Below, piece by piece: positions 712 to 12,790 of a stretch of DNA of 21,108 nucleotides (its first letter is position 1; each line of letters opens with the position of its first letter). The stretch spans positions 1-21,108 of the IMG/VR virus record IMGVR_UViG_3300041402_000361. The stretch is one strand, 5' to 3'. The stretch comes from a virus. A program made the position numbers and the translations under genes. Below the pieces are notes generated by a model. It had not been told where the DNA came from. It saw only the letters and a program-made list of their open reading frames with translations, and made no database searches.

Positions 712-732
712 GCGAACTCCTTTCGCGATTGT

Positions 733-750: not shown

Positions 751-753
751 GGA

Positions 754-1214: not shown

Positions 1215-1226
1215 CTCACCCCCCGG

Positions 1227-2146: not shown

Positions 2147-2277
2147 GTAATCATCTCCTCAATCGCGTCTACCAACTTGCCCACTCGCGCCAGGAGGACG
2201 AACTTGGTGGGGGACGACACAAGCCATAGAGCGATTCCACCGACCGCCACTGCGCTGACTAGCGTGCGTGCCCTCAT
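2143..2277 (-). CDS. 44-residue membrane micro-protein
   Basis: Reads MRARTLVSAV, then a hydrophobic run AVGGIALWLV, then SSPTKFVLLARVGK and an amphipathic end. Residues 5-20 could form one short transmembrane helix with a basic N-terminus. It is too short for a usual ORF cut-off but fits exactly between its neighbours, with ATGA overlaps at both ends. That strongly supports translation by coupling. Alternatives are a holin-like or regulatory micro-protein, but nothing identifies either. Confidence 0.6.
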   Translation of the reverse strand: MRARTLVSAVAVGGIALWLVSSPTKFVLLARVGKLVDAIEEMIT

Positions 2278-2726
2278 CTAGCTTCCCCTTTACCTGCATC
2301 ATCCCCCAGCATCTTCAGCGCATTCTTATATCTGACCCACATCCGCGGCTCTAACGGGAAAGGCTCCCGAAGGTTGTCCAGCACGTCACACACCTTGATC
2401 CGCCTCGCGCCTTCGTTCTCCGTCACCCGCGCGATATACTCGAAATAGGTTTCCTTTTCCTTGTCGTACGTGAGCACCAAAACCAAATTGGCGACCCCCA
2501 GACCGAATCGCATTTCCACGTCGTTGTAGGTGGCATCCGTATCCTCAATCACATCGTGTAGGAGCGCGGCGGCCACCATCCTCTCGTCTCCACCCGTTCT
2601 CGTCGCAACCTCACACGCAACCCGCAACGGGTGGTAGATGTAATCCACCTCGTTCTTATCCAACTGACCGTCGTGCTTGGCCATCGCGTACCGCAAAGCC
2701 GCGAATACTCTACTCGTCGAATTCAC
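2274..2726 (-). CDS. RelA/SpoT-type HD hydrolase, small alarmone hydrolase-like (150 aa)
   Basis: The order of motifs is that of the (p)ppGpp hydrolase half of RelA/SpoT and of stand-alone MESH1-like enzymes: YIYHPLRVA (His32), ALLHDVIEDT (His57, Asp58, Glu61, Asp62) and KVCDVLDNLR (Asp114, the distal metal ligand). These residues bind Mn2+ and an activating water that removes pyrophosphate from the 3' position. No synthetase domain is present, so it should be hydrolase-only. In a phage it may lower alarmone levels or neutralise a toxic alarmone-type synthetase; the substrate is inferred. It starts with GTG at 2726, overlapping the upstream TGA as GTGA. Confidence 0.85.
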   Translation of the reverse strand: MNSTSRVFAALRYAMAKHDGQLDKNEVDYIYHPLRVACEVATRTGGDERMVAAALLHDVIEDTDATYNDVEMRFGLGVANLVLVLTYDKEKETYFEYIARVTENEGARRIKVCDVLDNLREPFPLEPRMWVRYKNALKMLGDDAGKGEAR

Positions 2727-3028
2727 TTCTTGTACTCCTCTCGCGCATACCGCTCCAACTCGTCATCCCCGAAGGTCTCTGTAGCCGTCGCAGCATCGTG
2801 AACCATTCTGTTCCGCCAAGCCATATAGCGATCCGCTCTTTCCTTGCTCAGGGACCGCGCGTGTTTCGCCCGGGTAGCCTCAGCTTCCTCGGGAGTCTCC
2901 GCCTCGCAACTCATGCACAGGAGAACCTTCGATTCACGGTCGTACCGCTCCAGACCCTCCCTACTCATTGCGCGGGCTGCTCCACATCTACAGCAGTAGA
3001 GCTTGAATACTTCGTTCACGCGGCGCAT
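2723..3028 (-). CDS. Zinc-ribbon hypothetical protein (101 aa)
   Basis: The N-terminal part has a four-cysteine pattern, CCRCG (around residues 12-16) and CMSC (around 38-41), typical of a treble-clef or zinc-ribbon. A charged helical tail rich in Glu, Arg and Ala follows. GAAGGAG lies 8 nt before the ATG at 3028; an upstream GTG at 3037 would overlap this site and is unlikely. The gene overlaps the end of the DUF6011-type gene by 13 nt and the alarmone hydrolase start by 4 nt. No specific function. Confidence 0.75.
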   Translation of the reverse strand: MRRVNEVFKLYCCRCGAARAMSREGLERYDRESKVLLCMSCEAETPEEAEATRAKHARSLSKERADRYMAWRNRMVHDAATATETFGDDELERYAREEYKK

Positions 3029-3831
3029 GATGTGCACTCCTTCATTGACCCGTCCTTCTGAACGATAATCCCCTCATCCATGCACTGTGCACAGTTGAAC
3101 CCCGCATCCTCAGCGGTGATCTCCGGCTCCGTGGGAGGGGTGATGGGAACGCCCGCGAACTTCGTCGGGGCCTTCTTCTTGAACTTGACGCGACCGGTCT
3201 GCGTTCCCTCCATCGTCACCTTGGTGCCCCACGCAAGACCGAACTTCTTGGCACAGATCGGACCGTACCCGACCGCCATGCTTTCATCAGATTCGATCGG
3301 GGTGTTGCAGAAGCAGCAGTGCCCGCTCACCTTCGCGTACTTCTTGGCCATGCCTGCGGGGTCCGCGGACAATCGCTTGACGGTGCTGACGACGTACTGC
3401 GGAACGTCCCCGGACATCTGCCACGTGCCATCCAACAGGATGCGTCCGAACCACTTGTTCTCGCCGTACGGCAAACCGTCGGTGACGTTGATGCTACCCG
3501 GCACCGTCGCTTTTGCCCCGGCCCGGGAAAGCTGAACCGTACCCTCGTCCGTCTTGATGGTGATCTTGGGGTACTTGGCGGCTTGCGCCGCGGTATCGAA
3601 CATCGCAATCAGCGGCGCACAATCCACCACGACGACCGGCTTCACTTCCCCAGTCGAGCGAGCAGCCAGCTTCACCACCCACGGCCACTGCTTCGGGGAC
3701 AGGGTTCCTTTCTTTTCGAGTTGGCCCAGGAGGGAGGTTGCGAACGACTTGTCCTTGTCCGCGAGTTTCTCAAGATTGGCTTTCAGGGTTTTCACCGCAG
3801 CCGCTTCTTTACTGTCGGGGATATAGGCCAT
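3016..3831 (-). CDS. DUF6011-type zinc-binding protein (271 aa)
   Basis: Residues 170-197 read GHCCFCNTPIESDES...GYGPICAKKFG, the C-x2-C...GxGPxCAxK pattern of DUF6011 zinc-binding modules, common in phage and actinobacterial proteins. A second zinc site follows near the end, CAQC (247-250) and CTSC (266-269). The first 60 residues are helical and charged; residues 85-155 look like a beta-rich domain of unknown role. Two adjacent ATGs are possible (3834 and 3831); GGGAG is 6 nt from the second, which I chose. The upstream stop overlaps (TAATG). Biochemical function unknown. Confidence 0.75.
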   Translation of the reverse strand: MAYIPDSKEAAAVKTLKANLEKLADKDKSFATSLLGQLEKKGTLSPKQWPWVVKLAARSTGEVKPVVVVDCAPLIAMFDTAAQAAKYPKITIKTDEGTVQLSRAGAKATVPGSINVTDGLPYGENKWFGRILLDGTWQMSGDVPQYVVSTVKRLSADPAGMAKKYAKVSGHCCFCNTPIESDESMAVGYGPICAKKFGLAWGTKVTMEGTQTGRVKFKKKAPTKFAGVPITPPTEPEITAEDAGFNCAQCMDEGIIVQKDGSMKECTSCAA

Positions 3832-3833
3832 CA

Positions 3834-4103
3834 TTAGCTCCCGAACCGCATGTCAACGAGGTCCGCATCACGGTCGGCTGCGCGGCCTACGACCTGCGCG
3901 CTCTCCAGATAGATGTGGTGATGATCCCCAAGATGGAACGCGCTCTTCTCAGCCGCGCCAATGACATCGTTGACGGTCGGGTTCGTGTACGTGCCAGAAC
4001 TCCAACCTTCCCGATGCAAAATAACGTCACCCTTGAACGCCACGTCGTCACCGCTCTTGGTTCCGAACACACTAGCGTCCACTACAATCTTGATTCTGCT
4101 CAT
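3834..4103 (-). CDS. Hypothetical protein under repeated promoter P1 (89 aa)
   Basis: Starts MSRIKIVVDASVFG. A beta-rich N-terminus is followed by a central Gly/Thr-rich part and HLGDHHHIYLE near residue 60; the histidine cluster could bind metal but no family is evident. The ATG at 4103 has GGAGG 5 nt upstream inside a conserved leader (GGCACGGAGGCCAAG) shared with three other genes. Longer in-frame starts run back into the promoter and are rejected. It is the first gene after the operator-promoter at 4142-4176. Confidence 0.7.
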   Translation of the reverse strand: MSRIKIVVDASVFGTKSGDDVAFKGDVILHREGWSSGTYTNPTVNDVIGAAEKSAFHLGDHHHIYLESAQVVGRAADRDADLVDMRFGS

Positions 4104-4141
4104 CTTGGCCTCCGTGCCGTTTGATGTGCTGTGCTTGACCA

Positions 4142-4176
4142 TGTGGTAACTATACCACACACAAGATAGAAGGCAA
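4142..4176 (-). promoter_or_regulatory. Repeated promoter-operator P1
   Basis: Minus-strand sigma-70-like promoter: -35 TTGCCT (4176-4171), 16-bp spacer, -10 TATAGT (4154-4149). The -10 box lies inside the 18-bp inverted repeat TGTGGTATAGTTACCACA (4159-4142; 7-bp arms, 4-bp centre), identical in all five copies in the window. A protein bound to the repeat would cover the -10 box, so a repressor site is the simplest reading. Drives the 89-aa gene. Confidence 0.85.
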
Positions 4177-4200
4177 GGATTACTTTAGGGGAGGGATGAT

Positions 4201-4223
4201 GCCCCGGTATGACGCCCCGGGGC
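4201..4223 (-). terminator. GC-rich stem-loop after the 115-aa gene
   Basis: Seven-base-pair stem GCCCCGG (4201-4207) with CCGGGGC (4217-4223) and a 9-nt loop, 12 nt beyond the TAG stop. It overlaps a 14-bp palindrome (4212-4225). There is no U-run after it, so termination would be weak or factor-dependent. It separates the upstream gene from promoter P1. Confidence 0.45.
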
Positions 4224-4235
4224 GTGGCGTTGTGT

Positions 4236-4583
4236 CTACTTCTTGATCGGGTCCAGTGCGTCCCTGACCATCGCAGCAAGGTGTTGGAAATTCTTCCCGC
4301 GTCCCATCCACGGGTCCCGCACCTTGTACGGAATGTCCAGAAGGTCGGCTACCCAATGCACCGCATCGAACTCAGCCACCCCCTGCACATCCTGAGCACC
4401 CCCGTCGTTCGGAGTCACCGAGTGCTTCCCCATTGCCGGATCGTTCTTGAACGTCTCGGACTTGAACTCCAGCCCCATCTTGCTGAAGAACTCCGGGCTC
4501 AGGATGGAGTAGCCATCCGTGTCACTCAGCCACTCCCGAACCTTGTCGTGATCCATCTTTTCTACCGTGTTCTTGGTTGTCAT
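4236..4583 (-). CDS. Hypothetical protein (115 aa)
   Basis: Soluble, slightly acidic protein with predicted helices at both ends (VREWLSDTDG; FQHLAAMVRDALDPIKK) and a Gly/Asn-rich middle. The GVAEFDAVHWVADLLDIPYKVRDPW segment looks like a conserved core, but I do not recognise the family. AGGAG lies 7 nt before the ATG. It is preceded by a 250-nt gap containing a hairpin and a palindrome and followed by a GC-rich stem-loop, so it may be a single-gene transcript. Confidence 0.7.
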   Translation of the reverse strand: MTTKNTVEKMDHDKVREWLSDTDGYSILSPEFFSKMGLEFKSETFKNDPAMGKHSVTPNDGGAQDVQGVAEFDAVHWVADLLDIPYKVRDPWMGRGKNFQHLAAMVRDALDPIKK

Positions 4584-4599
4584 GTTGATCTCCTATGTC

Positions 4600-4617
4600 G
4601 AGTCCCTCATTGGACTC
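4600..4617 (-). promoter_or_regulatory. Small hairpin just upstream of the 115-aa gene
   Basis: GAGTCC and GGACTC form a 6-bp stem with a 6-nt loop, ending about 8 nt before the AGGAG ribosome binding site of the gene starting at 4583. It is preceded on the transcribed strand by CCTAAAATAGGG. It could affect translation or be part of a control site; no U-run follows. Confidence 0.4.
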
Positions 4618-4784
4618 AACCCTATTTTAGGAAACCGACTTTTCAGATTGGTGTCATTGGCAACGTGCCGCGTGACCTACCCCTGCACCTTGCATCGCAT
4701 TGACGAAATCGCCCGGGGCCTTGACACGGTTGCCAGCTAACACAGAACGGAGGGCGTGTGATCGGAGATGACTCGATTCAGATA

Positions 4785-4802
4785 CGTGCACGCGCGTGCA
4801 CG
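4785..4802. repeat. GC-rich palindrome copy 2 (18 bp)
   Basis: Perfect 18-bp palindrome CGTGCACGCGCGTGCACG, the longest GTGCAC-flanked form of the repeated core. It lies in the non-coding gap 4584-4831, 15 nt beyond the U-run of the terminator at 4817-4844. The rest of this gap shows no ORF with a ribosome site and no tRNA. Confidence 0.85.
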
Positions 4803-4816
4803 CCAGGGACGAAAGT

Positions 4817-4844
4817 AAAAAGATTCCCCGGCTAGAACGCGGGG
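4817..4844 (-). terminator. Rho-independent terminator after the 159-aa gene
   Basis: CCCCG (4844-4840) and CGGGG (4830-4826) form a 5-bp GC stem around a 9-nt loop that contains the TAG stop codon. It is followed by AATC and five U (4821-4817). It is the best intrinsic terminator in the window. It marks the end of the transcript that carries the genes from about 7660 down to 4832. Confidence 0.6.
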
Positions 4845-5311
4845 CCGTCTGGACCGGCGTATTTCTTGGGTTCGTACCGCAGCTCGATTGTTGCGATCTC
4901 GTAGCTGCTCCCATCCTCGCAGGAGCCGAAGAAGGCATTGGCGCGGTCCCGCGAGTCATCCGGCTTTGGCAACCCCTTCAAGGCATCAACCGACTCCCAC
5001 CAGATGTCAGCGTACTGCCCCACCGCATCCCATGCGTCCTGCTCTTTCGCATACCCGCTCAATTCGATCACATCGTTAGGCGTGGTCATGGCCAGTACAG
5101 TGACACGCTCCGGGCTACTGAAGTGGGTGGTCTCGGCAATCTCCTCTGCCAGTCCCTCCACCTCTTTCGGGGAGAGCGCCACGATTTCGCCCTTCGCCGT
5201 GGCTACCTCGCGCACGGCTATCGGGGGTTGTCCCTCAGCGTCGTAGTGTCGGTTGAAGAAACGCAGTGCGGCCACAACCGTCGCGAGCTGTCTCTGATCC
5301 AGATTCCGCAT
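4832..5311 (-). CDS. Hypothetical protein (159 aa)
   Basis: Starts MRNLDQRQLATVVAALRFFNRHY. The N-terminal 40 residues look helical; residues 45-75 resemble a charged helix and beta strand; WWESVDALKGLPKPDDSRD lies near residue 105. The acidic character suggests a soluble cytoplasmic protein. No family recognised. GAGAGGTAACTC precedes the ATG. It is the last gene before an intrinsic terminator whose hairpin contains its stop codon, 14 nt after the preceding gene. Confidence 0.7.
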   Translation of the reverse strand: MRNLDQRQLATVVAALRFFNRHYDAEGQPPIAVREVATAKGEIVALSPKEVEGLAEEIAETTHFSSPERVTVLAMTTPNDVIELSGYAKEQDAWDAVGQYADIWWESVDALKGLPKPDDSRDRANAFFGSCEDGSSYEIATIELRYEPKKYAGPDGPAF

Positions 5312-5325
5312 GAGTTACCTCTCTT

Positions 5326-5547
5326 TCAATTAGCCTTCCCTTGTGGAAGGGTCTTCACATCAGTTTCGATTTGATCTGCCACGTCCCGTAGAACCTGGAT
5401 AAGAACTTCGGCATCCTCGGCAGGGGCCTGAACAGAGAATCCATGCCCGTACTCTCCCCCCACTACAATGATGACCGCGGACCTCGCCTTCGCGTCGTCG
5501 CGCACGCGCGTGCACAGGTCGTCATATCGCCCAGCTCCAAGTGCCAT
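5326..5547 (-). CDS. Small phage protein of the GHGFSVQ type (73 aa)
   Basis: Contains RYDDLCTRVRDDAKARSAVIIVVGGEYGHGFSVQ, a helix, a beta strand (AVIIVVGG) and a GHGFSVQ motif seen in many short phage proteins of unknown role, followed by an amphipathic helix. AAGGAGG is 4 nt before the ATG at 5547; a GTG at 5550 is less well spaced. The start overlaps the previous stop as TGATG. The CTRVR codons fall on a copy of the repeated GCACGCGCGTGC palindrome. Confidence 0.7.
   Translation of the reverse strand: MALGAGRYDDLCTRVRDDAKARSAVIIVVGGEYGHGFSVQAPAEDAEVLIQVLRDVADQIETDVKTLPQGKAN
5502..5513. repeat. GC-rich palindrome copy 3 (12 bp)
   Basis: Perfect palindrome GCACGCGCGTGC inside the 73-aa gene, where it encodes part of C-T-R-V-R. 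Flanks do not extend the symmetry. Confidence 0.75.
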
Positions 5548-5876
5548 CACTCCTCCTTGAGTCCAAGGGCTTTCTTCTCTTCATCACTAAGCTTAGCAAG
5601 ACCCTGCGCTTTGAGCGCCAGCTTGTTCAGCTTCGCCTCGTCCATCTCTTTCTTGGCCTCATCGGCCATATCGTGGTCGTCAAACCACTTCACCACCCAC
5701 GGGTCGAATGCGTCGTCGATCTGGCGACGGGTCTTCAGGCACTTGAGGGACGCCCACAGTGCCCGCGCAACCATCGTCGCGAGCGCGCGGTCCCCTACCT
5801 TCAGACCGTAGTCTTCGTCATTGCGCCTGCATTCCATCTGATAGATCTCATGCGGTGACGGGCTACCGTTCGGCAT
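5547..5876 (-). CDS. Hypothetical protein (109 aa)
   Basis: Starts MPNGSPSPHEIYQMECRRND. It has a central region with DPWVVKWFDDHDMADEAKKE (residues 58-77) and a Lys/Leu-rich helical C-terminus ending KKALGLKEE. Likely helical and soluble; no family recognised. GGGAGG lies 8 nt before the ATG at 5876, 5 nt after the upstream stop. Its stop overlaps the next start (TGATG). Confidence 0.7.
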   Translation of the reverse strand: MPNGSPSPHEIYQMECRRNDEDYGLKVGDRALATMVARALWASLKCLKTRRQIDDAFDPWVVKWFDDHDMADEAKKEMDEAKLNKLALKAQGLAKLSDEEKKALGLKEE

Positions 5877-5881
5877 CAGCT

Positions 5882-6211
5882 TTACCTCCCCTTGATTTGT
5901 TCCAACACAGCCCGCGTCTCTTTGATTTGTTCCAACACAGCCAGCGCCGCGAGGGGCGCATCATTCAGAATCGCGTAATCCTGCACAGCGTTGTTCTTCA
6001 CGCACGGCATCAACTGCTCGTGTGCGCGTAGCATCATGTCCAGGGACTTTTCCATCTCCCCGATGATTCTGATGGCACGCTTCCAAGCTGCGGGCTCCTG
6101 AGCGCCCGCCTCACAGTTGCCTTGCAGTATCCGTTCCGCGATAGCCAACTCCCTATTAGTGAATCGGAAACCACCGTAGTTGCCCCTTCCGGGGATCACG
6201 CCATCACTCAT
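5882..6211 (-). CDS. Hypothetical protein with duplicated C-terminal peptide (109 aa)
   Basis: Mostly helical. Residues 15-60 read FRFTNRELAIAERILQGN...WKRAIRIIGEMEK. The C-terminus ends with AVLEQIKETR then AVLEQIKGR, a tandem duplication of ten codons that is also a direct DNA repeat (5892-5942). GGGAGG precedes the ATG, which shares a base with the upstream stop (TGATG). Function unknown; the duplication is at the very end, so it may be neutral. Confidence 0.7.
   Translation of the reverse strand: MSDGVIPGRGNYGGFRFTNRELAIAERILQGNCEAGAQEPAAWKRAIRIIGEMEKSLDMMLRAHEQLMPCVKNNAVQDYAILNDAPLAALAVLEQIKETRAVLEQIKGR
5892..5942. repeat. Tandem 30-bp duplication (21-bp perfect core)
   Basis: TTGATTTGTTCCAACACAGCC occurs at 5892-5912 and again at 5922-5942, a 30-bp period that keeps the reading frame and duplicates AVLEQIK in the encoded protein. 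A 14-nt relative (TTTGATTTGTTCCA) also occurs near 18964 in gat-queC, where it again encodes LEQIK. Confidence 0.9.
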
Positions 6212-6351
6212 CAGCTTGCCTCCCTTTCGTTCATGCGGTCAGCCACCACTGCGGCGTCGTCCCGCGTCCAATACCCTTCTGCCACTGCACCCGAATGAAT
6301 GAAGTGAGGGAAGTATCGTCCAGTCTTGGGATCACGATCCACGTACCACAT
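6211..6351 (-). CDS. 46-residue hypothetical protein
   Basis: Reads MWYVDRDPKTGRYFPHFIHS then GAVAEGYWTRDDAAVVADRM and a short polar end. The pattern (aromatic strand, then a DDAAVVADRMN helix) looks like a small beta-hairpin plus helix domain. AAGGGGG stands 8 nt before the ATG. It fills exactly the space between two neighbours, with a 3-nt gap upstream and a TGATG overlap downstream. Too short for standard ORF lists; function unknown. Confidence 0.65.
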   Translation of the reverse strand: MWYVDRDPKTGRYFPHFIHSGAVAEGYWTRDDAAVVADRMNEREAS

Positions 6352-6354
6352 CAG

Positions 6355-6660
6355 TCACCCCCTTGTTCGGTCATCTACAAGCCCCAACTGCCCGTTGGAA
6401 ATCATGCCGTCGATGACATTGCGCATGAAGTCCGGCATCACCTCATAGGCGGCCTGACCAATGTTGGGAGGGGGAGTCACCAGATCCCCAATCGTGAGGG
6501 ACAACCCGTGTTCGAGCTTGCGACACGCGGTACCGAGCAGGTTCTCCACGTCGTTGAAAACCTTGAACTTCGCCTCGGCCAATTCCGGGGACGTAGCCAT
6601 CAGCTCGCCCGACTGCTTCTTCAGTTCCTTGATCGCTTCCGCCATCTCAGGCATCGTCAT
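6355..6660 (-). CDS. Hypothetical protein (101 aa)
   Basis: Begins MTMPEMAEAIKELKKQSGEL, a helical start; the middle reads EAKFKVFNDVENLLGTACRKLEHG, and the end contains PNIGQAAYEVMPDFMRNVIDGM. Helix-rich and soluble. I chose the ATG at 6660 because GAGGAG is 8 nt upstream; the longer frame to 6762 runs antisense to the codon use of the 53-aa gene that overlaps it. Overlap with that gene is 14 nt. No family recognised. Confidence 0.7.
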   Translation of the reverse strand: MTMPEMAEAIKELKKQSGELMATSPELAEAKFKVFNDVENLLGTACRKLEHGLSLTIGDLVTPPPNIGQAAYEVMPDFMRNVIDGMISNGQLGLVDDRTRG

Positions 6661-6808
6661 CTTCGTTCTCCTCGTCTTCAGCTCGTTCCCGTTCCTCGCG
6701 CTCTTCCCGTTCCAGGCGCGCGTCCTCTTCCGCGGAGGTCTCGCAACCCATCGCGTCGTCAATGTCTTGGTGTGTGCAACCCGGGGGCAACCCCCATCCG
6801 AAACCCAT
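6647..6808 (-). CDS. 53-residue acidic protein
   Basis: Starts MGFGWGLPPGCTHQDIDDAM, then a highly charged Glu/Arg helix and an acidic end (EDEENEDDDA). The P-P-G-x-T-x-x-D-I-D-x-A-M segment resembles the start of many very small phage proteins of unknown role. It shares a base with the upstream stop (TGATG) and overlaps the next gene by 14 nt. Its last acidic codons carry the GAGGAG site of that gene. Below usual ORF size cut-offs. Confidence 0.6.
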   Translation of the reverse strand: MGFGWGLPPGCTHQDIDDAMGCETSAEEDARLEREEREERERAEDEENEDDDA

Positions 6809-7056
6809 CAGATCAACCCCCTGCGGATGTGGTCGGTGATCGAATCAACGAGGGAGCGATTGCCCCGCTCATCCCAGTCCGCGAACGGCTCCAGCGCGTC
6901 CAGGATGGTGTCCTGCTGCTTCACCAGAGCTTCCCCCAGCTCCTCGACGGACACTGCATCCGGCGCACTCTTTGCGCGGGCCTCAGCCAATTCCTTGCGG
7001 CACTGATCCAGCGCCCCGAGTGCCTCGTGGTAGTTCTTCGGTGTGTACTTAGCCAT
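6808..7056 (-). CDS. Hypothetical helical protein (82 aa)
   Basis: MAKYTPKNYHEALGALDQCR and following residues (KELAEARAKSA, VEELGEALVKQQDTILDALEPFADWDE) suggest two or three amphipathic helices, perhaps a small coiled coil. No family recognised. GGAGG stands 6 nt before the ATG at 7056; the GTG at 7059 is an alternative. It overlaps the previous gene by 8 nt and the next by one base. Confidence 0.65.
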   Translation of the reverse strand: MAKYTPKNYHEALGALDQCRKELAEARAKSAPDAVSVEELGEALVKQQDTILDALEPFADWDERGNRSLVDSITDHIRRGLI

Positions 7057-7288
7057 CACTTGCCTCCTTGCGAGCTGCCCGTTTCATCAGTGAGTCGATC
7101 GTGCGCTGCGCCTGATACTTCCTCGTGTAGGAGTTCCACGCACGGCCTGTCTCGTTGTTGATGACCTCGAACCGCGTCTCGAAGATGTACTCGTTCATCT
7201 TGATCGCATACCCCGACGCGCGCTGTGCTGCGTTCGCCCGGGGCGCACGCTTGTGGATCACCTTTTCGATCCGGTAGGTCGCGCTCAT
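7049..7288 (-). CDS. Basic hypothetical protein (79 aa)
   Basis: Strongly basic (many Arg and Lys), with a central beta-rich part (YIFETRFEVINNETGRAWNS) and a basic helical end (TIDSLMKRAARKEA). It may bind nucleic acid, but no motif proves this. The ATG overlaps the upstream stop as ATGA, so translation is likely coupled to the gene driven by promoter P2. Confidence 0.65.
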   Translation of the reverse strand: MSATYRIEKVIHKRAPRANAAQRASGYAIKMNEYIFETRFEVINNETGRAWNSYTRKYQAQRTIDSLMKRAARKEASDG

Positions 7289-7665
7289 ACCGAAACCACG
7301 TCGGCGTCAATGTGGAGGTCCCGCGCCAAGAACATGCTCGAACCCTTGTAAACGAACCCGGACGAGCAGCGGCACGAACTGCATCCCGCATACCAGTCCC
7401 AGGAGCAGTCCTTCGTGGCCTGGACGCTTTCCTTGATGTTGAATCCCATGCGAAGGAACGCGGCGTAGATCGTGCCCCGCAGGACCTTGCGCTGCGCGTT
7501 GTACCCTGCGCGGGTGATTGCCTTCTCTTCCTTCGTCTCGTCCGTCTTGAACAAGCGAGTCTGAAGCTCGTCGAACTCCGCTCCCTCGACGTTGACGTAG
7601 ACCCGGGGGTAACTGGCCTTGCCCCTCATTCGTACCTGTGTCATCTCGGTGATTGCGACCTGCAT
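7285..7665 (-). CDS. Hypothetical protein under repeated promoter P2 (126 aa)
   Basis: Starts MQVAITEMTQVRMRGKASYP, then a beta strand RVYVNVEG. A charged helix (FKTDETKEEKAITRAGYNAQ) follows. The C-terminal part has CSWDWYAGCSSCRCSSGF (around residues 92-109), a Cys-rich stretch that could bind zinc or iron. No family recognised. The ATG at 7665 has AAGGAGG in the conserved leader GGCAAGGAGGCCAAA; the longer frame reaching 7713 enters the promoter. Confidence 0.7.
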   Translation of the reverse strand: MQVAITEMTQVRMRGKASYPRVYVNVEGAEFDELQTRLFKTDETKEEKAITRAGYNAQRKVLRGTIYAAFLRMGFNIKESVQATKDCSWDWYAGCSSCRCSSGFVYKGSSMFLARDLHIDADVVSV

Positions 7666-7712
7666 TTTGGCCTCCTTGCCGTTGAATGCGTCTGATGTCC
7701 TTACGTTGACCA

Positions 7713-7747
7713 TGTGGTAACTATACCACAGTCAAGGGGACTGGCAA
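7713..7747 (-). promoter_or_regulatory. Repeated promoter-operator P2
   Basis: -35 TTGCCA (7747-7742), 16-bp spacer, -10 TATAGT (7725-7720), inside the invariant 18-bp inverted repeat (7713-7730). An A-rich GAAAATA tract lies 4 nt upstream of the -35 box, in the position of an UP element. Drives the 126-aa gene. Confidence 0.85.
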
Positions 7748-7752
7748 GCACT

Positions 7753-7773
7753 ATTTTCAGGGACTCCGAAAAT
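7753..7773 (-). promoter_or_regulatory. A/T inverted repeat between gene end and P2
   Basis: ATTTTC and GAAAAT arms (6 bp) around a 9-nt centre, beginning at the TAA stop of the 66-aa gene and ending just upstream of the P2 -35 box. The same 6+9+6 layout occurs at 11339-11359 before promoter P5. It may be an activator site, an UP element or a weak terminator. Confidence 0.5.
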
Positions 7774-7973
7774 TAAATCGTCTGCACCTTCACCCCTGCC
7801 AGCGTGGCCTCGTAGCGGTTGTCGCGCGTGCGCTCCGCCAGCCCCGCGATCACCAGTTGGGTTCCATGCTTCACATCGTTGCGCCGCAACTGCACGCTCC
7901 GGGAGTTGGCCCCCTTGAGCGCGGCCTGCAAGAGGTGCAGGACCCTACGCTCGTCGATGGAAAGGCGTGTCAT
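7773..7973 (-). CDS. Small hypothetical protein, possible winged helix (66 aa)
   Basis: MTRLSIDERRVLHLLQAALK looks like a helix, followed by RSVQLRRNDVKHGTQLVIAGLAERTRDNRYEATLAGVKV. A helix, a basic helix and a beta-hairpin with LVIAGLAERTRDN-YEAT strongly recall the end of small winged-helix proteins, but this is a weak pattern. The ATG at 7973 has GGAG 6 nt upstream; the longer frame would need a TTG start. The ATG overlaps the upstream stop (TGATG). Confidence 0.6.
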   Translation of the reverse strand: MTRLSIDERRVLHLLQAALKGANSRSVQLRRNDVKHGTQLVIAGLAERTRDNRYEATLAGVKVQTI

Positions 7974-8332
7974 CACATGCTCCAATAGGTTTCACTTGAG
8001 GGGTCGCAGCAGTTGGGCGTGTCGGCGCGAATCGTCATCTCTTTGCCGCTCATCAGGTTGACGACCGTCTTCATCTTCGGGGGACCGTGAACCGCTTCGT
8101 ACTCCGCAGTCAGGACCGCCTCGGACACGAACCCGCGGGCCGTTTCTTCCCAGCCGTAGAAGCACAGCGGACCCACGTACCCGGAACACAGAATCACGCA
8201 GTTCGCATCATTGTGCATGGCCCAGCGATACCCCTCAGCCGCTTCCGTATTGGCGGCGGCCAGGAAATACTGCCCGACTTCCTTCGTCTCTGTGTTGGTT
8301 GCGTGAAAGGCGTAGATTCGTTGCTTGCTCAT
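7973..8332 (-). CDS. Hypothetical protein behind the structured leader, promoter P3 (119 aa)
   Basis: Starts MSKQRIYAFHATNTETKEVG. The first 60 residues look like a beta-alpha unit (YFLAAANTEAAEGYRWAM). The middle contains CVILCSGYVGPLCFYGWEE, and the C-terminus has a possible metal site (TPNCCDPSS). No family recognised. The ATG at 8332 has AAGGAGG in the conserved leader GGCAAGGAGGCCGAA. The same frame stays open back to 8563, but that part covers the inverted-repeat leader and has poor protein character. Confidence 0.65.
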   Translation of the reverse strand: MSKQRIYAFHATNTETKEVGQYFLAAANTEAAEGYRWAMHNDANCVILCSGYVGPLCFYGWEETARGFVSEAVLTAEYEAVHGPPKMKTVVNLMSGKEMTIRADTPNCCDPSSETYWSM

Positions 8333-8561
8333 TTCGGCCTCCTTGCCGTTGGTTGACGTGCGCCATGAAGAAGCAGGACGTTCGTTCCCGGCCTTGGCCG
8401 CTGCTACAGACTTGAGTGCCCCGGTTTCCCGGCTTCTCTTACTGTCCTCGGTCAGCCCTGCTTCTTCATGGCACATGGGACGCAGGCTCTCGGGGTGCAT
8501 CTCTTTCGTCGCTACCAGGAGCGCTGAATGGCCTTCCCCTTGAGTGTCTGTCCCGTGTACC
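8333..8561 (-). other. Long untranslated leader of the 119-aa gene
   Basis: About 230 nt separate the predicted start of transcription of P3 from the ATG at 8332; the other four repeated promoters have leaders of only about 30-50 nt. The extra sequence holds the 111-nt inverted-repeat element (8362-8472). I see no separate gene with a ribosome binding site here. The gene-free stretch as a whole runs 8333-8636 and also contains promoter P3. Confidence 0.55.
8362..8472 (-). ncRNA. Candidate structured RNA element, 16-bp closing stem
   Basis: GCCATGAAGAAGCAGG (8472-8457 on the minus strand) pairs perfectly with CCTGCTTCTTCATGGC (8377-8362), enclosing 79 nt. Inside are a CCGG stem capped by a GAAA tetraloop (CCGGGAAACCGG, 8432-8421) and a second GC hairpin (CGGCCAAGGCCG, 8400-8389). 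Such nesting, directly behind a promoter, suggests a folded leader RNA or a small RNA processed from the transcript. It matches no riboswitch or ribozyme that I recognise. The inverted repeat is certain; its function is inferred. Confidence 0.55.
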
Positions 8562-8562
8562 A

Positions 8563-8597
8563 TGTGGTAACTATACCACAGTCAAGGGGAGGGGCAA
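8563..8597 (-). promoter_or_regulatory. Repeated promoter-operator P3
   Basis: -35 TTGCCC (8597-8592), 16-bp spacer, -10 TATAGT (8575-8570), inside the invariant inverted repeat (8563-8580). An AAAATAAG tract lies 5 nt upstream of the -35 box. Unlike the others, the conserved GGTCAA after the repeat is changed to GGTACA, and a long leader follows. Confidence 0.85.
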
Positions 8598-8636
8598 GGA
8601 CTTATTTTCCCTGAAACCAAGATTTTTATTCAAGAG

Positions 8637-9083
8637 CTATTCCGGTCTGTTAGGCGAGATGATAGTGATCGGCTTCTGACATTCCTTCGCGAAGCGCACG
8701 GTCCACCATGTGCCTTGGCCCCGTTTCCCGATGGGCTGCTTCTCCTGCCAGGGCGTAGCCAGCATCATATCCGTGTGACTGACGATGGTGGCATTCCGCT
8801 TGAGGTACTCCGCACGGGGCAAGCACCGGGCACAACCAGTTCCCTCCCCTTCAGGGATGCCCACGTGCTTCTGCTCAATCGGCGGGTGAAGAACAATGTA
8901 GTAGCCGAGGTCCCACGCGATGTCGTGCGCTTGGGTATCGGCCCCCACGCACCCGCCGTGATGGAACTCGTAGCGTTCCATCTTCTGCAAGGCCGACGCC
9001 TTGTGCAACTTGAGGATGTGCGTCACCGCCTCTTTCTGCGATTGCGTCATTCCCTTGCGCGTACCTGTGAATCCAATCTTCAT
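8637..9083 (-). CDS. SLOG/DprA-like nucleotide-binding protein (148 aa)
   Basis: MKIGFTGTRKGMT at the start and HHGGCVGADTQAHDIAWDLG at residues 41-60 are the two signatures of the SLOG/DprA Rossmann-like family (GxTGxR, then H-G-x-x-xGAD-x-A). YYIVLHPP follows, the next strand. Members bind nucleotides or nucleotide-derived signals; DprA itself binds single-stranded DNA. This single-domain phage version may bind or cleave a nucleotide; the ligand is unknown. GAGGAAGCTGA precedes the ATG, which overlaps the upstream stop as ATGA. It is the last gene before promoter P3. Confidence 0.75.
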   Translation of the reverse strand: MKIGFTGTRKGMTQSQKEAVTHILKLHKASALQKMERYEFHHGGCVGADTQAHDIAWDLGYYIVLHPPIEQKHVGIPEGEGTGCARCLPRAEYLKRNATIVSHTDMMLATPWQEKQPIGKRGQGTWWTVRFAKECQKPITIISPNRPE

Positions 9084-9280
9084 TCAGCTTCCTCCTCAAA
9101 CAGGTCGATGCCCAGAGCCCCGGCAATGCACTCAGATTGATCGTTACAGTACCGGATATTCTGAGTCATCTGCGCCCCGTGGAAATCCAACGTCTTCTGG
9201 TGAACGGAGATCTTCTCATCCGGTCGCGTACGCTTGCACACGTGGCACGTCCATGTCAGCTTCGTGTAGTCGAATGTCAT
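9080..9280 (-). CDS. Zinc-binding hypothetical protein (66 aa)
   Basis: Contains TWTCHVCKRTRPDEKISV near the start and NIRYCNDQSEC near residue 48, giving a C-x2-C...C-x5-C set that likely holds one zinc ion. Short phage proteins with a W-x-C-x2-C-x3-RPD opening are common and uncharacterised. The ATG at 9280 overlaps the upstream stop as ATGA. Its first nine codons (MTFDYTKLT) are nearly the same as those of the gene just upstream (MTFDFKKWY). Confidence 0.7.
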   Translation of the reverse strand: MTFDYTKLTWTCHVCKRTRPDEKISVHQKTLDFHGAQMTQNIRYCNDQSECIAGALGIDLFEEEAE

Positions 9281-9450
9281 CGGGGAGCCATCGAAGGGAA
9301 TGTGGTGGCAAGCTTCTTCTTGTTGCGCCACGCGGTGACCCTACGCTTCTCTGCCGACCGTACCTGTGGATTCAGCTTGTATCGCTTGCGCCGCTTGGCG
9401 TTCACGATGTCCTTGTTGTCCGCGTACCACTTCTTGAAGTCGAATGTCAT
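9277..9450 (-). CDS. 57-residue very basic protein
   Basis: Reads MTFDFKKWYADNKDIVNAKR then RKRYKLNPQVRSAEKRRVTA and a Lys-rich end. The Y-x-D-N-K-x-x-V-x-A-K-x-x-x-x-Y pattern is like small phage proteins built of short basic helices, possibly nucleic-acid binding. It has ATGA overlaps at both ends (9450-9447 and 9280-9277), which supports real translation although it is below usual size limits. Confidence 0.65.
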   Translation of the reverse strand: MTFDFKKWYADNKDIVNAKRRKRYKLNPQVRSAEKRRVTAWRNKKKLATTFPSMAPR

Positions 9451-9836
9451 GCGCGCTCCGTGTCGTATTCGTCGCGCAGGGCGAGGATCTGACTCGGGCT
9501 GTCACTCAACCTCCCGAACCGTGTAGAGAACGCCCCACGCGCCACGTCGTGGAATACAGAGTGCAGATCCATGCTCAGCCGCGACATACGGGTGGAGAGC
9601 GCGTACTCCCTCGCACGTTCCGTCGCAGGGAGGGGTCCCGAAAACGACCACCTCGCGATGATGCCCAGTATCTTCTCCCGCAGATCTTCGGGGAACTCCC
9701 GATCTCCCGTGCAGAGGCAGATAGCGTGCACGCGGGGCTTTTCGATCTCCGTCATGCGGACGAGGAACTCTTCCCCGTCTTCGATATTTTCGATGGCTTG
9801 AATCTCGCCATCCCAAGCGTCAAACCAACTACTCAT
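9447..9836 (-). CDS. Hypothetical protein (129 aa)
   Basis: Starts MSSWFDAWDGEIQAIENIED. The first half is acidic with a possible beta strand (VHAICLCTG), the middle a helix (EDLREKILGIIARW), and the C-terminus helical and basic. No family recognised. I chose the ATG at 9836 because GGAGG lies 9 nt upstream; the longer frame to 9977 runs through the next gene and has an Arg/Trp-rich, shadow-like composition. Confidence 0.7.
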   Translation of the reverse strand: MSSWFDAWDGEIQAIENIEDGEEFLVRMTEIEKPRVHAICLCTGDREFPEDLREKILGIIARWSFSGPLPATERAREYALSTRMSRLSMDLHSVFHDVARGAFSTRFGRLSDSPSQILALRDEYDTERA

Positions 9837-10041
9837 CCTCTGGTACCTCCAACGGGCCACACCAAACAGCCACCGAGTAAACCGAAATCGGGTCCACGAA
9901 TCCGCGGTCCCCGCGCCAAACAGCCAGCTCCCCGTGCCCATGTTCCGGGCCAATCTCAACCACGGTGGGTTCCCCACTCCCCAACCGCATCCAGTAGAAT
10001 CCGATCTTCGTAGGCGCTTCAGGCGTCCACTTCATCCTCAT
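9829..10041 (-). CDS. Small phage protein with W-x-P...GFYW start (70 aa)
   Basis: MRMKWTPEAPTKIGFYWMRL resembles a frequent small phage protein opening (W-x-P-x-x-P-x-x-x-G-[WF]-YW), followed by EPTVVEIGPE and VAVWCGPLEVPE, all beta-like. Probably a single beta-sandwich-like unit of unknown role. The first ATG at 10041 has GGAGG 7 nt upstream and overlaps the upstream stop (ATGA). It overlaps the next gene by 8 nt. Confidence 0.7.
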   Translation of the reverse strand: MRMKWTPEAPTKIGFYWMRLGSGEPTVVEIGPEHGHGELAVWRGDRGFVDPISVYSVAVWCGPLEVPEDE

Positions 10042-10277
10042 CCCAAATCCTCCTCATCGAGCCGGTCCTGCAAGCCCGCCACATCGGGGAACTGTGCCAG
10101 CACCATCTCAATCGCTTCGTCCACATCCTCGGTCGTATGCGCCAGGATCGATCGCAATTCCTTCAGCGCAGGGGCAAACGTCGGCTCCAAAGCAGCCTTG
10201 GCTTTGTTCGCCACGGCGTTGCGCTTATGCTCCGCAGCCCGCGCGACCTGCCAGGAATTGGGAACGAACTTGCCCAT
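10038..10277 (-). CDS. Hypothetical helical protein (79 aa)
   Basis: Begins MGKFVPNSWQVARAAEHKRN, basic at the start and acidic at the end (LQDRLDEEDLG). It has long helices at residues 20-70 (APALKELRSILAHTTEDVDEA). No family recognised. GAGG lies 7 nt before the ATG, which shares a base with the upstream TAA (TAATG), so it is co-translated with the gene behind promoter P4. Confidence 0.65.
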   Translation of the reverse strand: MGKFVPNSWQVARAAEHKRNAVANKAKAALEPTFAPALKELRSILAHTTEDVDEAIEMVLAQFPDVAGLQDRLDEEDLG

Positions 10278-10462
10278 TAGAAGACCTCGAAATCTTCAGC
10301 GAAGGGGCCTTCCGGGTAGAACTGAGGGGGCTTGTCCTTGCGTGCGATGATGGCCTTGAGCAGCATCGTCTTCTGGAACTCGTTCGGAGCGTTTTCGAGG
10401 TACTCCTCCAACTCCGCCGTCGTCACATCCTTGAGGTCCCGCATCTCGTTGGTGCCTGCCAT
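10277..10462 (-). CDS. Hypothetical protein under repeated promoter P4 (61 aa)
   Basis: MAGTNEMRDLKDVTTAELEE then YLENAPNEFQKTMLLKAIIA and KPPQFYPEGPFAEDFEVF: two helices and an acidic proline-rich tail. Unknown family. The ATG at 10462 has AAAGGA about 7 nt upstream in a leader (GCAAAGGAAACCAAA) shared almost exactly with the gene behind promoter P5. Longer starts extend into the promoter. Confidence 0.65.
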   Translation of the reverse strand: MAGTNEMRDLKDVTTAELEEYLENAPNEFQKTMLLKAIIARKDKPPQFYPEGPFAEDFEVF

Positions 10463-10494
10463 TTTGGTTTCCTTTGCTGTCCGTGTGTTGACCA

Positions 10495-10529
10495 TGTGGT
10501 AACTATACCACACCTCCAGCGAGATGCAA
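10495..10529 (-). promoter_or_regulatory. Repeated promoter-operator P4
   Basis: -35 TTGCAT (10529-10524), 16-bp spacer, -10 TATAGT (10507-10502), inside the invariant inverted repeat (10495-10512). This copy lacks the A-rich tract found upstream of P2, P3 and P5. It begins right after the stop of the 52-aa gene. Confidence 0.8.
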
Positions 10530-10534
10530 ACGCC

Positions 10535-10693
10535 CTACCGACCCAGCTCCTTCTTCGCCTGAGTCACGGCCTCGGCCATCGTCATCAGCGACGGACCGCT
10601 GTGCTGCCGGAGAATCTCCATCGCCAGGAAATGGACCTTGAGGCGATCATTGCCCCACTGCGCGTCCCGGTCTGCTTGAGAAGTGTTGGACAT
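10535..10693 (-). CDS. 52-residue hypothetical protein
   Basis: MSNTSQADRDAQWGNDRLKV then HFLAMEILRQHSGPSLMTMA and EAVTQAKKELGR: a short helical protein of unknown function. The ATG at 10693 carries the conserved leader GGCAAGGAGGCCGAA that otherwise follows P1, P2 and P3. Here no operator lies directly upstream; the gene follows 22 nt after the 120-aa gene. Confidence 0.65.
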   Translation of the reverse strand: MSNTSQADRDAQWGNDRLKVHFLAMEILRQHSGPSLMTMAEAVTQAKKELGR

Positions 10694-10715
10694 TTCGGCC
10701 TCCTTGCCGGTGTTG

Positions 10716-11078
10716 TTATTCCGCTGCAATCTGAAAGATCTTCGTGATGATTGCAAGGCCCCGCACGTGCGGGATCGTCCCACTGGCGTTGAACCCGCGC
10801 GTGTTGAGAACGCGCCACTTACCACTCTTCGGAGTCGTCATGCTCAGTTGCAAGTCGTCCCCGAGAGAAACGCCCACCTTCTGGATGCGCGTCTTGCCCT
10901 GGACCCACACGCTAACCTGCCCGCCCGCCTTGGTGGTGAGCCGCATGTTTTCGGAGAGCAGCTTCACGAGCGACTGCTGTGGATTGAGCATGACATCGTG
11001 GCGTCGGATGAACTCCTCCAATTCCGCCAGAGCGCCGTCCAATTCCGCCAGCTCTTCTTGCTCGGCTGTTGCATTCAT
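10716..11078 (-). CDS. Hypothetical protein (120 aa)
   Basis: An acidic helical N-terminus (EQEELAELDGALAELEEFIRR) is followed by a beta-rich domain (VSVWVQGKTRIQKVGVSLGDDLQLSM) ending in a helix. Function unknown. The ATG at 11078 overlaps the upstream stop as ATGA. The ribosome site is weak (GGAACGG), so coupling is likely needed. The coding sequence holds the palindrome CCCGCACGTGCGGG (10760-10773). Confidence 0.65.
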   Translation of the reverse strand: MNATAEQEELAELDGALAELEEFIRRHDVMLNPQQSLVKLLSENMRLTTKAGGQVSVWVQGKTRIQKVGVSLGDDLQLSMTTPKSGKWRVLNTRGFNASGTIPHVRGLAIITKIFQIAAE

Positions 11079-11266
11079 CGTTGAACGCCGTTCCAAGCCG
11101 TGTAGTTAGGCTTGACGCGGGGGGTGTTGATGTTACGCGCCATCTCCACCAGCGCGGGGCTGAACGAGTTGTTCTCGTTCTTCGCGACGTACTCGACCAG
11201 CTCCTTGTCGGAGAAGGGCACGTTGAATTCTGCACGAAGGATCTTCACCAGTGCTGTCCGCGTCAT
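11075..11266 (-). CDS. Hypothetical protein under repeated promoter P5 (63 aa)
   Basis: MTRTALVKILRAEFNVPFSD then KELVEYVAKNENNSFSPALV and a basic tail: a small helical protein, possibly with a helix-turn-helix-like first half, though the pattern is weak. The ATG at 11266 has AAAGGA in the leader GCAAAGGAAACCAAG, almost the same as the P4 leader. Longer starts run through the promoter and are rejected. Confidence 0.65.
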   Translation of the reverse strand: MTRTALVKILRAEFNVPFSDKELVEYVAKNENNSFSPALVEMARNINTPRVKPNYTAWNGVQR

Positions 11267-11298
11267 CTTGGTTTCCTTTGCTGTGTTGTGTTTGACCA

Positions 11299-11333
11299 TG
11301 TGGTAACTATACCACACACAAGGGGGATGACAA
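11299..11333 (-). promoter_or_regulatory. Repeated promoter-operator P5
   Basis: -35 TTGTCA (11333-11328), the best -35 match of the five, then a 16-bp spacer and -10 TATAGT (11311-11306) inside the invariant inverted repeat (11299-11316). A GAAAATAA tract lies 4 nt upstream of the -35 box. Confidence 0.87.
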
Positions 11334-11337
11334 GCTT

Positions 11338-11360
11338 TATTTTCGGATGAAGTGAAAATA
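11338..11360 (-). promoter_or_regulatory. A/T inverted repeat upstream of P5
   Basis: TATTTTC (11338-11344) and GAAAATA (11354-11360) form a 7-bp inverted repeat with a 9-nt centre, the same layout as 7753-7773 before P2. It lies between the end of the 151-aa gene and the -35 box. Confidence 0.5.
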
Positions 11361-11379
11361 ATTCTGGACACGCAAGAGG

Positions 11380-11835
11380 CTAGATAACTGCGTGAACCTC
11401 ATGGAAGAGGACGATCTCGCGCGTGTCATAGGGCACGTCTTCGCGTGTTAGCTCCACCGTTACCACGCCATCGAAACCCCTATTCAAGAGCATCAGACTG
11501 AGGTTGATCCCCGTTACTCGGTCAAACGCTTCGCTGAGCTGATGCTTCCAGGAGAAGCCATCATACCCGCATCCGTGATGAAGATTGAAGGGGATAACGA
11601 GGGGGCACTCCAACAGAGTCTTACCCTGCTCCCACCCGTGGCGGGAAATGTCCGGGTCGGGGTCGTGCAGCACATACCTCCCAACGGGTTCGATGTCCTG
11701 TTGGAATCGAGAGCCGAAGTCTTCCGCCCGATCCAGGATGTGCTTCCAGTTTAGGTGAACGGGCAAACCGGTAGAGAAGTGATGCCCGTACTCTTCCACC
11801 CCCATCCCTACCTTGGCCAGCCCCGTGAAGATCAT
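11380..11835 (-). CDS. Hypothetical protein, possible ADP-ribosyltransferase-like fold (151 aa)
   Basis: MIFTGLAKVGMGVEEYGHHF opens the protein. Residues 20-115 contain His- and Trp-rich stretches (HGWEQGKTLLECPLVIPFNLHHGCGYDGFSW). The C-terminus reads LMLLNRGFDGVVTVEL...REIVLFHEVHAV, like the G-[FY]-D-G-V-V...E-x-V-x-F end of some ADP-ribosyltransferase-like proteins. The similarity is only to this ending, so the family call is weak. GAGGAGG is 8 nt before the ATG at 11835. Confidence 0.6.
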   Translation of the reverse strand: MIFTGLAKVGMGVEEYGHHFSTGLPVHLNWKHILDRAEDFGSRFQQDIEPVGRYVLHDPDPDISRHGWEQGKTLLECPLVIPFNLHHGCGYDGFSWKHQLSEAFDRVTGINLSLMLLNRGFDGVVTVELTREDVPYDTREIVLFHEVHAVI

Positions 11836-11852
11836 CTTGGTTCCTCCTCGAA

Positions 11853-12089
11853 TCAATCAACAAAGCCTTCCGGGAAATGCTTGTCGAGTAGGGTCTGCAC
11901 AATCTCCACCAGTTTCGGGGGATAGGTCTCTTGCGCGGCCACGGCCTTCAGGTCATCCCGAATCTCAAGCTTCTGCTCGCGGTACCGATTGCACTGGAAC
12001 CGAGCTTGATCCCTCAGTTCCTCCGCGCGCTCCAAGGCGTACGTCAGATCCTTGATGTCCTTGGACTCCTCTTGCTTCGTGCCAGCCAT
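11853..12089 (-). CDS. Coiled-coil protein, paralogue of the gene at 12097 (78 aa)
   Basis: MAGTKQEESKDIKDLTYALE leads into ERAEELRDQARFQCNRYREQ, then KLEIRDDLKAVAA and an ending with LDKHFPEGF. The order of features (helix with RF, then E-Q-K-x-E-I-x-x-D-L-x-A-x-A, then HFPE) matches the gene directly upstream, so the two are tandem paralogues. The second of two ATGs, at 12089, has GAGG 5 nt upstream. Function unknown. Confidence 0.7.
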   Translation of the reverse strand: MAGTKQEESKDIKDLTYALERAEELRDQARFQCNRYREQKLEIRDDLKAVAAQETYPPKLVEIVQTLLDKHFPEGFVD

Positions 12090-12096
12090 CATCACC

Positions 12097-12294
12097 TCAA
12101 TCTGTAATCTCAGGAAAGTGCCGAACGAGCAGTATTGCCGCAGCGGCATCGGTTTCAATCCTAGGCATCGAAGCGGTGGGGTGAGCGAGCGCCTCCAGGT
12201 CCGCTTTGATTTCGTTCTTCTCCTGCTTCAGTATCTCCTCGCGGAACCGCGATTGCTCAAGCAGTTCAGCCATCCGTTGAAGTTCCCCCGCCAT
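12097..12294 (-). CDS. Coiled-coil protein, paralogue of the gene at 11853 (65 aa)
   Basis: MAGELQRMAELLEQSRFREE, then ILKQEKNEIKADLEALA and LLVRHFPEITD. It shares MAG, the AELLEQSRF helix, the E-Q-K-N-E-I-K-A-D-L-E-A-L-A segment and the HFPE ending with the next gene. GGAGG stands 7 nt before the ATG, which overlaps the upstream stop (TGATG). A helical, probably oligomeric small protein of unknown role. Confidence 0.7.
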   Translation of the reverse strand: MAGELQRMAELLEQSRFREEILKQEKNEIKADLEALAHPTASMPRIETDAAAAILLVRHFPEITD

Positions 12295-12563
12295 CAGACG
12301 ACCTCCACTTCAGGTACTTCAGGTTGCCGAGGAAGACTGTGGTCCTCATGTTCGTGGTCCACTCCGGCTTTGCAGAGGTCACATTCCAGTGCCCCCTCCA
12401 ATTGAGCCACCGCTGCAATGAACTCTCTACACGTGCGGCAATGCAACAGCACGTGCGTCTTGGTTGCATAAGCATCCAATCCCCTGAACGGAACCTTGTT
12501 CTCGAAACAAGCCTTACACTTTAGGACTACGGCCTCTTCCCCATCGAGTTCTACTTTAGCCAT
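12294..12563 (-). CDS. Zinc-binding hypothetical protein (89 aa)
   Basis: Contains LKCKACFENKV, then LLHCRTCREF about 30 residues later, then ECDLC: three Cys pairs that would bind one or two zinc ions. The C-terminus is acidic and proline-rich (PRQPEVPEVEVV). No family recognised. AAGGAGG stands 5 nt before the ATG at 12563, and the start shares a base with the upstream stop (TGATG). The longer frame to 12671 is unlikely. Confidence 0.7.
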   Translation of the reverse strand: MAKVELDGEEAVVLKCKACFENKVPFRGLDAYATKTHVLLHCRTCREFIAAVAQLEGALECDLCKAGVDHEHEDHSLPRQPEVPEVEVV

Positions 12564-12790
12564 CACCCCTCCTTGGTCATTCTGCCTACGTTGACTTGTT
12601 GCACTCGGCCCGCAGTGCACGCACATACGAGGTCGCGCGCATCCTCCACGGGCTCCACGTGGATGTACCACCCAATCGAAGCCCCGATGTCTTTCGTGTC
12701 CTCCGCATGATTCTCACACACGAAGTCGGGGGCCTTCCCGGGCCAGAACCTCCGGTGAGTGACAGGTCGCTCACACTTAGGTTCGGTCAT
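12563..12790 (-). CDS. Small phage protein with FWPG motif (75 aa)
   Basis: MTEPKCERPVTHRRFWPGKA, then PDFVCENHAEDTKDIGASIG and a CACTAGR end. Cys, His and the FWPG-x-x-P-x-x-x-C-x-x-H spacing are typical of a small zinc-binding protein seen in many phages; function unknown. The ATG overlaps the upstream stop as ATGA, and the stop overlaps the next start as TGATG. Confidence 0.7.
   Translation of the reverse strand: MTEPKCERPVTHRRFWPGKAPDFVCENHAEDTKDIGASIGWYIHVEPVEDARDLVCACTAGRVQQVNVGRMTKEG

Follow-up and report, generated by a model that had tools for sequence, protein, structure and literature searches.

A shared dyad over the -10 box suggests an operator on dispersed promoters of a tailed phage

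Comparison with described systems

In mycobacteriophages of the L5 type, operators and stoperators are short repressor sites that occur phage-wide and are oriented with transcription, as far as the excerpted text of PMC9283540 goes. The inverted repeat described here, from IMG/VR virus record IMGVR_UViG_3300041402_000361 (the whole record of 21,108 bases, henceforth the window), likewise belongs to one phage-wide family of short sites oriented with transcription. In the same excerpt, the L5 sites are asymmetric 13-mers, bound by a monomer and in many cases away from promoters; in the window virus, by contrast, the sites have dyad symmetry and coincide with promoter-like sequences, and none of its 64 scanned proteins was recognised as a repressor.

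Each site resembles a sigma70 extended -10 promoter, with a TTG-type -35 box, a spacer of 16-17 bp, a hexamer near TATAAT and, in eight of nine sites, a TG before the -10 box, but a right arm is added here that forms a dyad with the extended -10 element. In overall design, the dyad is comparable to the TyrR box of Azospirillum, given as TGTAACG-N4-CTTTACA in the available part of PMC6375630: both are 18 bp long, end in TGT and ACA and have 7-bp arms around an N4 centre. The arms differ in sequence, however, and instead of a TyrR-like protein only a Fis-like candidate of 68 aa, below the Pfam cut-off, was seen. Finally, E. coli mRNAs with a 5'-terminal AUG (5'-uAUG mRNAs; Beck, Fleming and Janssen 2016, PMC4965119, in the sections we draw on) have an AUG at the expected 5' end and a downstream Shine-Dalgarno (SD) start. 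The sequence fits this pattern at seven of the nine sites, with 5' ends that are predicted; unlike in E. coli, the arrangement is repeated across a phage genome, mostly in frame.

Promoter-like sites and their dyad

The first-pass annotation of the window reported an 18-bp inverted repeat, TGTGGTATAGTTACCACA, at 4142, 7713, 8563, 10495 and 11299. All five copies are exact, and no match was found in 100 dinucleotide shuffles of the window, even with up to three mismatches allowed. They are all on the minus strand, that of the apparent genes there. The reported promoter geometry also holds at every site: the repeat covers a TATAGT -10 box, with a TTGNNN box exactly 16 bp upstream. The -35 boxes are TTGCCT (4171-4176), TTGCCA (7742-7747), TTGCCC (8592-8597), TTGCAT (10524-10529) and TTGTCA (11328-11333) for sites 1 to 5; that of site 4 can be read alternatively as TTTGCA, one base upstream, with a spacer of 17 bp and an equal score. 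Conservation had been ascribed to the repeat only. Spacers and -35 boxes do vary, but the identical block is longer than the repeat, as TGGT follows the 18-mer in all five copies. The resulting 22-bp block, TGTGGTATAGTTACCACATGGT, occupies 4138-4159, 7709-7730, 8559-8580, 10491-10512 and 11295-11316 (18-mers at 4142-4159, 7713-7730, 8563-8580, 10495-10512 and 11299-11316). The centre of the palindrome is imperfect, with four unpaired bases between 7-bp arms. An extended -10 element, TG one base 5' of the hexamer, is present in all five sites. Neither an Rfam search of the window (E up to 1) nor a megablast search against phages returned a match, and we found no description of the element among open-licence papers, judged by title and start of abstract.

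Three overlapping IMG/VR contigs add about 32 kb of the same virus, giving a combined sequence of 53,564 bases of a genome that is still incomplete. L007 is 100% identical to the window virus over 4,618 bp and L012 99.94% identical over 13,951 bp; the third contig (L233/L234) joins L012 with 99.86% identity over 3,609 bp and L235, which is on the same contig as L012, with 100% identity over 2,387 bp. The contig of locus L201, considered as a distant relative, was rejected as such, its overlap with the contigs of the window virus placing it in the same virus. The added contigs contain matches to DNA polymerase, PPDK, RecA, helicase and primase.

These contigs harbour four more sites, TGTGGTACTGTTACCACA, TGTGGTAGAGTTACCACA, AGTGGTATAAAAACCACA and TGGGGTAGAGTAACCACA (in longer form TGTGGTACTGTTACCACATGG, TGTGGTAGAGTTACCACATGG, AGTGGTATAAAAACCACAG and TGGGGTAGAGTAACCACAAG), with a TTG box at 16, 17, 17 and 17 bp, respectively. 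Each is followed by an SD-led gene, one of which encodes PPDK. The TTG box is thus 16 or 17 bp from the -10 box in all nine sites of the virus, and the TG precedes the hexamer by one base in eight (all five window sites and three of the four further ones, TGGGGTAGAGT being the exception). The hexamers are TATAGT (five sites), TAGAGT (two), TACTGT and TATAAA (one each). ACCACA, on the other hand, is unchanged in all nine sites, including the two that have no ATG at its end, and GTGGTA/ACCAC is kept in the four diverged sites with one mismatch in one of them.

Nine places in the 53,564 bases match GTGGT-N6-ACCAC, where about 0.1 would be expected; the Markov mean is 0.17 and the maximum 2 in 60 runs, both strands counted. 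Eight of these places are promoter sites and one is inside an unrelated open reading frame (ORF) between 4142 and 7713; TGGGGTAGAGTAACCACA, with its arm mismatch, is a promoter site left out of this count. L5 stoperators show a different pattern, that of asymmetric 13-bp sites also found in promoterless gaps. Searching for a TTG box and a TATA-type -10 box with no dyad imposed gave seven places, of which five are the window sites, one is a promoter-like site before an SD sequence and one is a weak plus-strand match. The dyad score of the window sites is 1.00, compared with 0.69 for permuted flanks, and none of 100 permutations reaches it (three of the five sites passed the filter).

The sites are very likely promoters, and they likely carry a shared operator. 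Constraint by promoter function alone predicts a -10 box that is kept and a right arm that drifts; the reverse is seen, favouring an operator over a promoter alone. A dyad retained where the -10 core has changed suggests an operator superimposed on early promoters at scattered positions. As in a phage operator regulon, one site recurs at promoter-like sequences of phage genes, in five identical and four diverged copies. Host RNA polymerase with its main sigma factor would use the TTG -35 box, the extended -10 element (TGTGG) and the -10 hexamer, and a symmetric protein, probably a dimer, would bind TGTGGTA-N4-TACCACA. Covering the extended -10 element, the -10 box and the start site, the bound protein may block open-complex formation, so that all site-carrying units would be shut off, or released, together. 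We consider it probable on balance that the sites are early tailed-phage promoters bearing an operator, at which a dimer over the -10 box and start site controls the units jointly. At least nine start signals appear to share the same or nearly the same dyad, through which a single protein could jointly activate or silence many small blocks of genes.

The first-pass annotation had proposed a regulon under one factor. Of this, the set of promoters that may be co-regulated is well supported, with four further sites and arms that are kept better than the core, whereas we infer transcription, its early timing, protein binding, repression, the switching with its direction and the identity of the factor. 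With the dyad over the -10 box as a shared signature, regulation by one factor is directly testable, and a short DNA fragment may serve as bait for it.

Alternative readings, AT-rich viruses and relatives

Several observations weigh against an operator. The extended -10 element accounts for the left half of the dyad by itself. The full 7-bp arms differ in two of the nine sites, at two outer-arm positions each, and the first base of the right arm is among the changed positions; sites 6 to 9 were found via their arms, a search that favours arm conservation. A plain consensus promoter scan of 1-13500 gave 7 promoter-like sites against 4.6 (standard deviation 2.3) in shuffles, and terminator-like sites in the same region numbered 10 against 10.5; since the latter are at chance level, the ends of the units are left undefined. 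The leaders share related segments (repeat families D1-D3), and recent duplication of leader DNA could be partly behind the five identical copies. No clear repressor was found among the 64 proteins scanned from the incomplete genome, for which the first 25 of 33 Pfam and 25 of 74 PHROG families were considered. Finally, the 18-mer, with up to three mismatches, is absent from 79 stretches of terminase relatives and from four cultured relatives that were searched whole, and the dyad is clearly above control in none of 19 relative loci with at least three promoter-like sites (lowest 13/100).

The repeat could instead be a by-product, the 22-bp block being simply an optimal extended -10 element and start region with no bound factor. 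We regard this as rather unlikely, albeit a reading to which unrelated AT-rich viruses lend some weight. Many small ORFs in related AT-rich contigs are preceded by TTG...TATA[GC]T-N4-6-ATG (85 candidates in 17 loci, some weak or spurious), in which the ATG is the apparent gene start itself, and these promoters show no clear dyad constraint. The exact 18-mer is also present in three such contigs. The commonest bases per column are TGTGG on the left and AC..CATG on the right, and several terminase relatives also have GTG or GTGG 5' of the -10 box. The AT-rich promoter set, drawn from 29 loci, comprises 84 distinct sequences, some of them near-duplicates or lacking a checked ORF. Its right-arm columns are loose (C15 29%, A16 26%); the dyad pairing sum is reached by 107 of 2000 shuffles, and the number of perfect dyads, five, by 98 of 2000. 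Because these right arms are loose and their pairing is hardly above that of shuffles, we attribute the left half, the -10 box and the position of the ATG to promoter and start function, and consider the strict dyad peculiar to the window virus. A by-product of promoter function is also hard to reconcile with a -10 core that drifts in four of nine sites alongside an ACCACA that is intact in all nine, with or without the ATG.

The AT-rich contigs L009, L013, L061, L066, L237 and related ones form a group in which promoters of leaderless appearance are numerous, with as many as 12 in 8.2 kb (L009). A crude ORF count finds few SD sequences in the group, for example 4/20, 1/20 and 3/18, compared with 25/41 in the window. 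Similar long ORFs in AT-rich contigs, which we take to encode a T4-like DNA polymerase, start five bases after TATAGTT, inside TTGAC...TATAGTTAC[TA][GA]TATG, leaving no room for an SD sequence; the search pattern itself required most of this motif. They were seen at L060, L063, L064, L070, L074-L076, L080, L082-L090, L092, L093, L095, L099, L102 and L103. As a side result, these comparisons brought out a set of AT-rich viruses in which small genes seem to be driven by many leaderless promoters. Scanning viral contigs for the arms and the ATG gave 50 stretches which, beyond the window virus and the AT-rich group, mostly look like coding-repeat families or chance matches. A scan for the -35 box and the arms gave 14 stretches; its four loci outside both groups (L229-L232) compare with about three expected by chance by our own estimate, and were set aside.

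The sigma70 start is usually placed at the seventh base after the -10 box. In the five window sites this base is the last base of the palindrome and also the A of an ATG (at 4142 in site 1), from which the frame is open and in phase into an SD-led gene 39, 48, 231, 33 and 33 nt downstream for sites 1 to 5. Two of the four diverged sites also have the ATG, in one case in frame, making seven of nine sites with an ATG and six of these seven in frame. At least six in frame would have a chance of 0.007 if the cases were independent, which is doubtful because the leaders share related segments. Seven of the nine predicted transcripts would start with AUG, so ribosomes may to some extent initiate at the 5' end and make an N-terminally extended product.

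The 20-bp core TGTGGTATAGTTACCACATG might be a cassette of promoter, dyad operator and 5' AUG that has spread through the phage genome, is translated both leaderless and from the SD sequence, and has arisen in, or moved to, unrelated AT-rich viruses as a plain leaderless promoter; we hold this to be decidedly unlikely. Another proposal, that the block is kept for a translated AUG at +1, from which leaderless or N-terminally extended proteins are made or which brings ribosomes to the SD start, strikes us as very unlikely. The frame data, the same-position ATG that is the apparent gene start in AT-rich viruses and the E. coli mRNAs that are described, in the part of PMC4965119 cited above, as translatable from both the 5' AUG and the SD start all speak for it. 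However, ACCACA is present in every site, even in the two that have no ATG and the one whose ATG is out of frame; the frame test lacks independence, and the symmetric left arm is left unexplained. In any case, 5' AUGs in frame with SD starts offer a natural setting in which to test mixed translation, leaderless and SD-led. A repeated element for replication, recombination or packaging is hardly credible, for short identical repeats in differing surroundings would suit it, but all nine sites are on the gene strand, with a TTG box at 16-17 bp and an SD-led gene downstream.

To return to the operator favoured here, the first-pass annotation had set beforehand, as a test, the presence of the repeat in relatives that keep the genes, and the repeat is absent from them. 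The 79 terminase-relative stretches amount to about 1.16 Mb, with at most about 22 kb per contig and some contigs near-identical. Their terminases are only about 40-55% identical to that of the window virus; we therefore read the absence as limiting the element to this lineage, not as refuting it. The genes that open the four diverged units have homologs in 14, 20, 26 and 30 loci; no homolog was found among the relative loci for the first gene of any of the five window units. Some relatives have other promoters before orthologs of genes controlled in this virus. One relative locus, L116, has a single TGTGG-TAAAATAT-CCACA promoter-like site. TGTGG and CCACA are separated by eight bases six times in the relatives, against 0-2 times at the other spacings tried; on inspection, at least three of the six are in homologous, probably coding stretches, and the count was not taken as support.

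Stenotrophomonas phage Summit, Vibrio phage LV6 and some IMG/VR contigs resemble the window virus, by eye, in having a promoter signature of their own repeated before SD-led genes. In Summit and LV6, unlike here, the signature is at or before the -35 box (TTGACAAAAC in LV6, GGCGAAAA..CTTGC in Summit), and no dyad over the -10 box was seen in the gaps of these two phages that were read by eye. No repeated promoter signature was evident by eye in Rhodobacter phage RcZahn. Among relatives with shared terminase and PPDK genes, each virus seems to have reworked its dispersed promoters in its own way.

The order of genes, PPDK first, then tyrosine phosphatases, polymerase and a 625-aa protein standing where the portal protein would be, matches that in RcZahn. 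In terminase, the virus shares about 45-54% identity with Stenotrophomonas, Rhodobacter and Vibrio phages of 80-102 kb (among the best 25 of 352 records), and a second comparison gave 46-52%. Single-protein searches with terminase and DNA polymerase for closer relatives returned only the window virus itself. Bacterial and archaeal genomes yielded 22 stretches with the pattern CTTG-N16/17-TGN-TATAGTTAC-N3-ATG, against about 15 expected by chance (our own estimate); as this is not clearly above chance, no host was deduced from it.

Candidate regulators, leaders and neighbouring genes

The Fis-like protein named as a candidate factor by the first-pass annotation (68 aa, 754-960, minus strand, downstream of site 1 on the same strand) may still be the binding factor, but its HTH_8 match (E 0.0033) is below the Pfam cut-off. 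Its PDB alignments, to NtrC-family chains, are weak (E 0.42 and 0.54). A low-confidence single-sequence model has a pLDDT of 69.8, with four helices at residues 6-22, 27-33, 38-47 and 52-66, and has no significant structural match in the PDB (best E 4.8). TyrR carries an HTH_8 domain, a DNA-binding helix-turn-helix of the Fis type. In the unit of site 5, a 98-aa ORF at 11075-11371 has an HTH_6 match (E 0.029), also below the cut-off; we treat both proteins as leads only.

The first SD-led genes of the five units have no assigned function and are all on the minus strand: 3834-4103 (89 aa, in frame with the 5' ATG), 7285-7665 (126 aa), 7973-8332 (119 aa), 10277-10462 (61 aa) and 11075-11266 (63 aa). 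The leader of unit 3 is long, 231 nt (8333-8563, minus strand), and is an open reading frame throughout. The stretch 8325-8563 on this strand forms a long predicted hairpin, with arms at 8359-8377 and 8457-8475, a minimum free energy of -94 kcal/mol and a z-score of -3.7; none of 200 shuffles is as stable, and it has no Rfam match.

A G+C-rich palindrome around GCACGCGCGTGC, with variable ends, is repeated in the window at 731, 4784, 5497, 13922 and 20117. It also occurs beside sites on L233 (near 10130) and L234 (near 4030), in two cases inside the operator-adjacent leader. On the same virus, L233:11096-11371 (minus strand) encodes a probable CsrA-like protein (Pfam CsrA, E 1.7e-6), the single such match among the 64 scanned proteins, which was tied to this position by reading the ORF sequence; homologs are present in 19 other loci. 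The gene run at 16046-20393 of the window resembles genes for 7-deazaguanine synthesis and includes a queuine tRNA-ribosyltransferase-like protein at 19320-20393 (PHROG E 9.4e-31).

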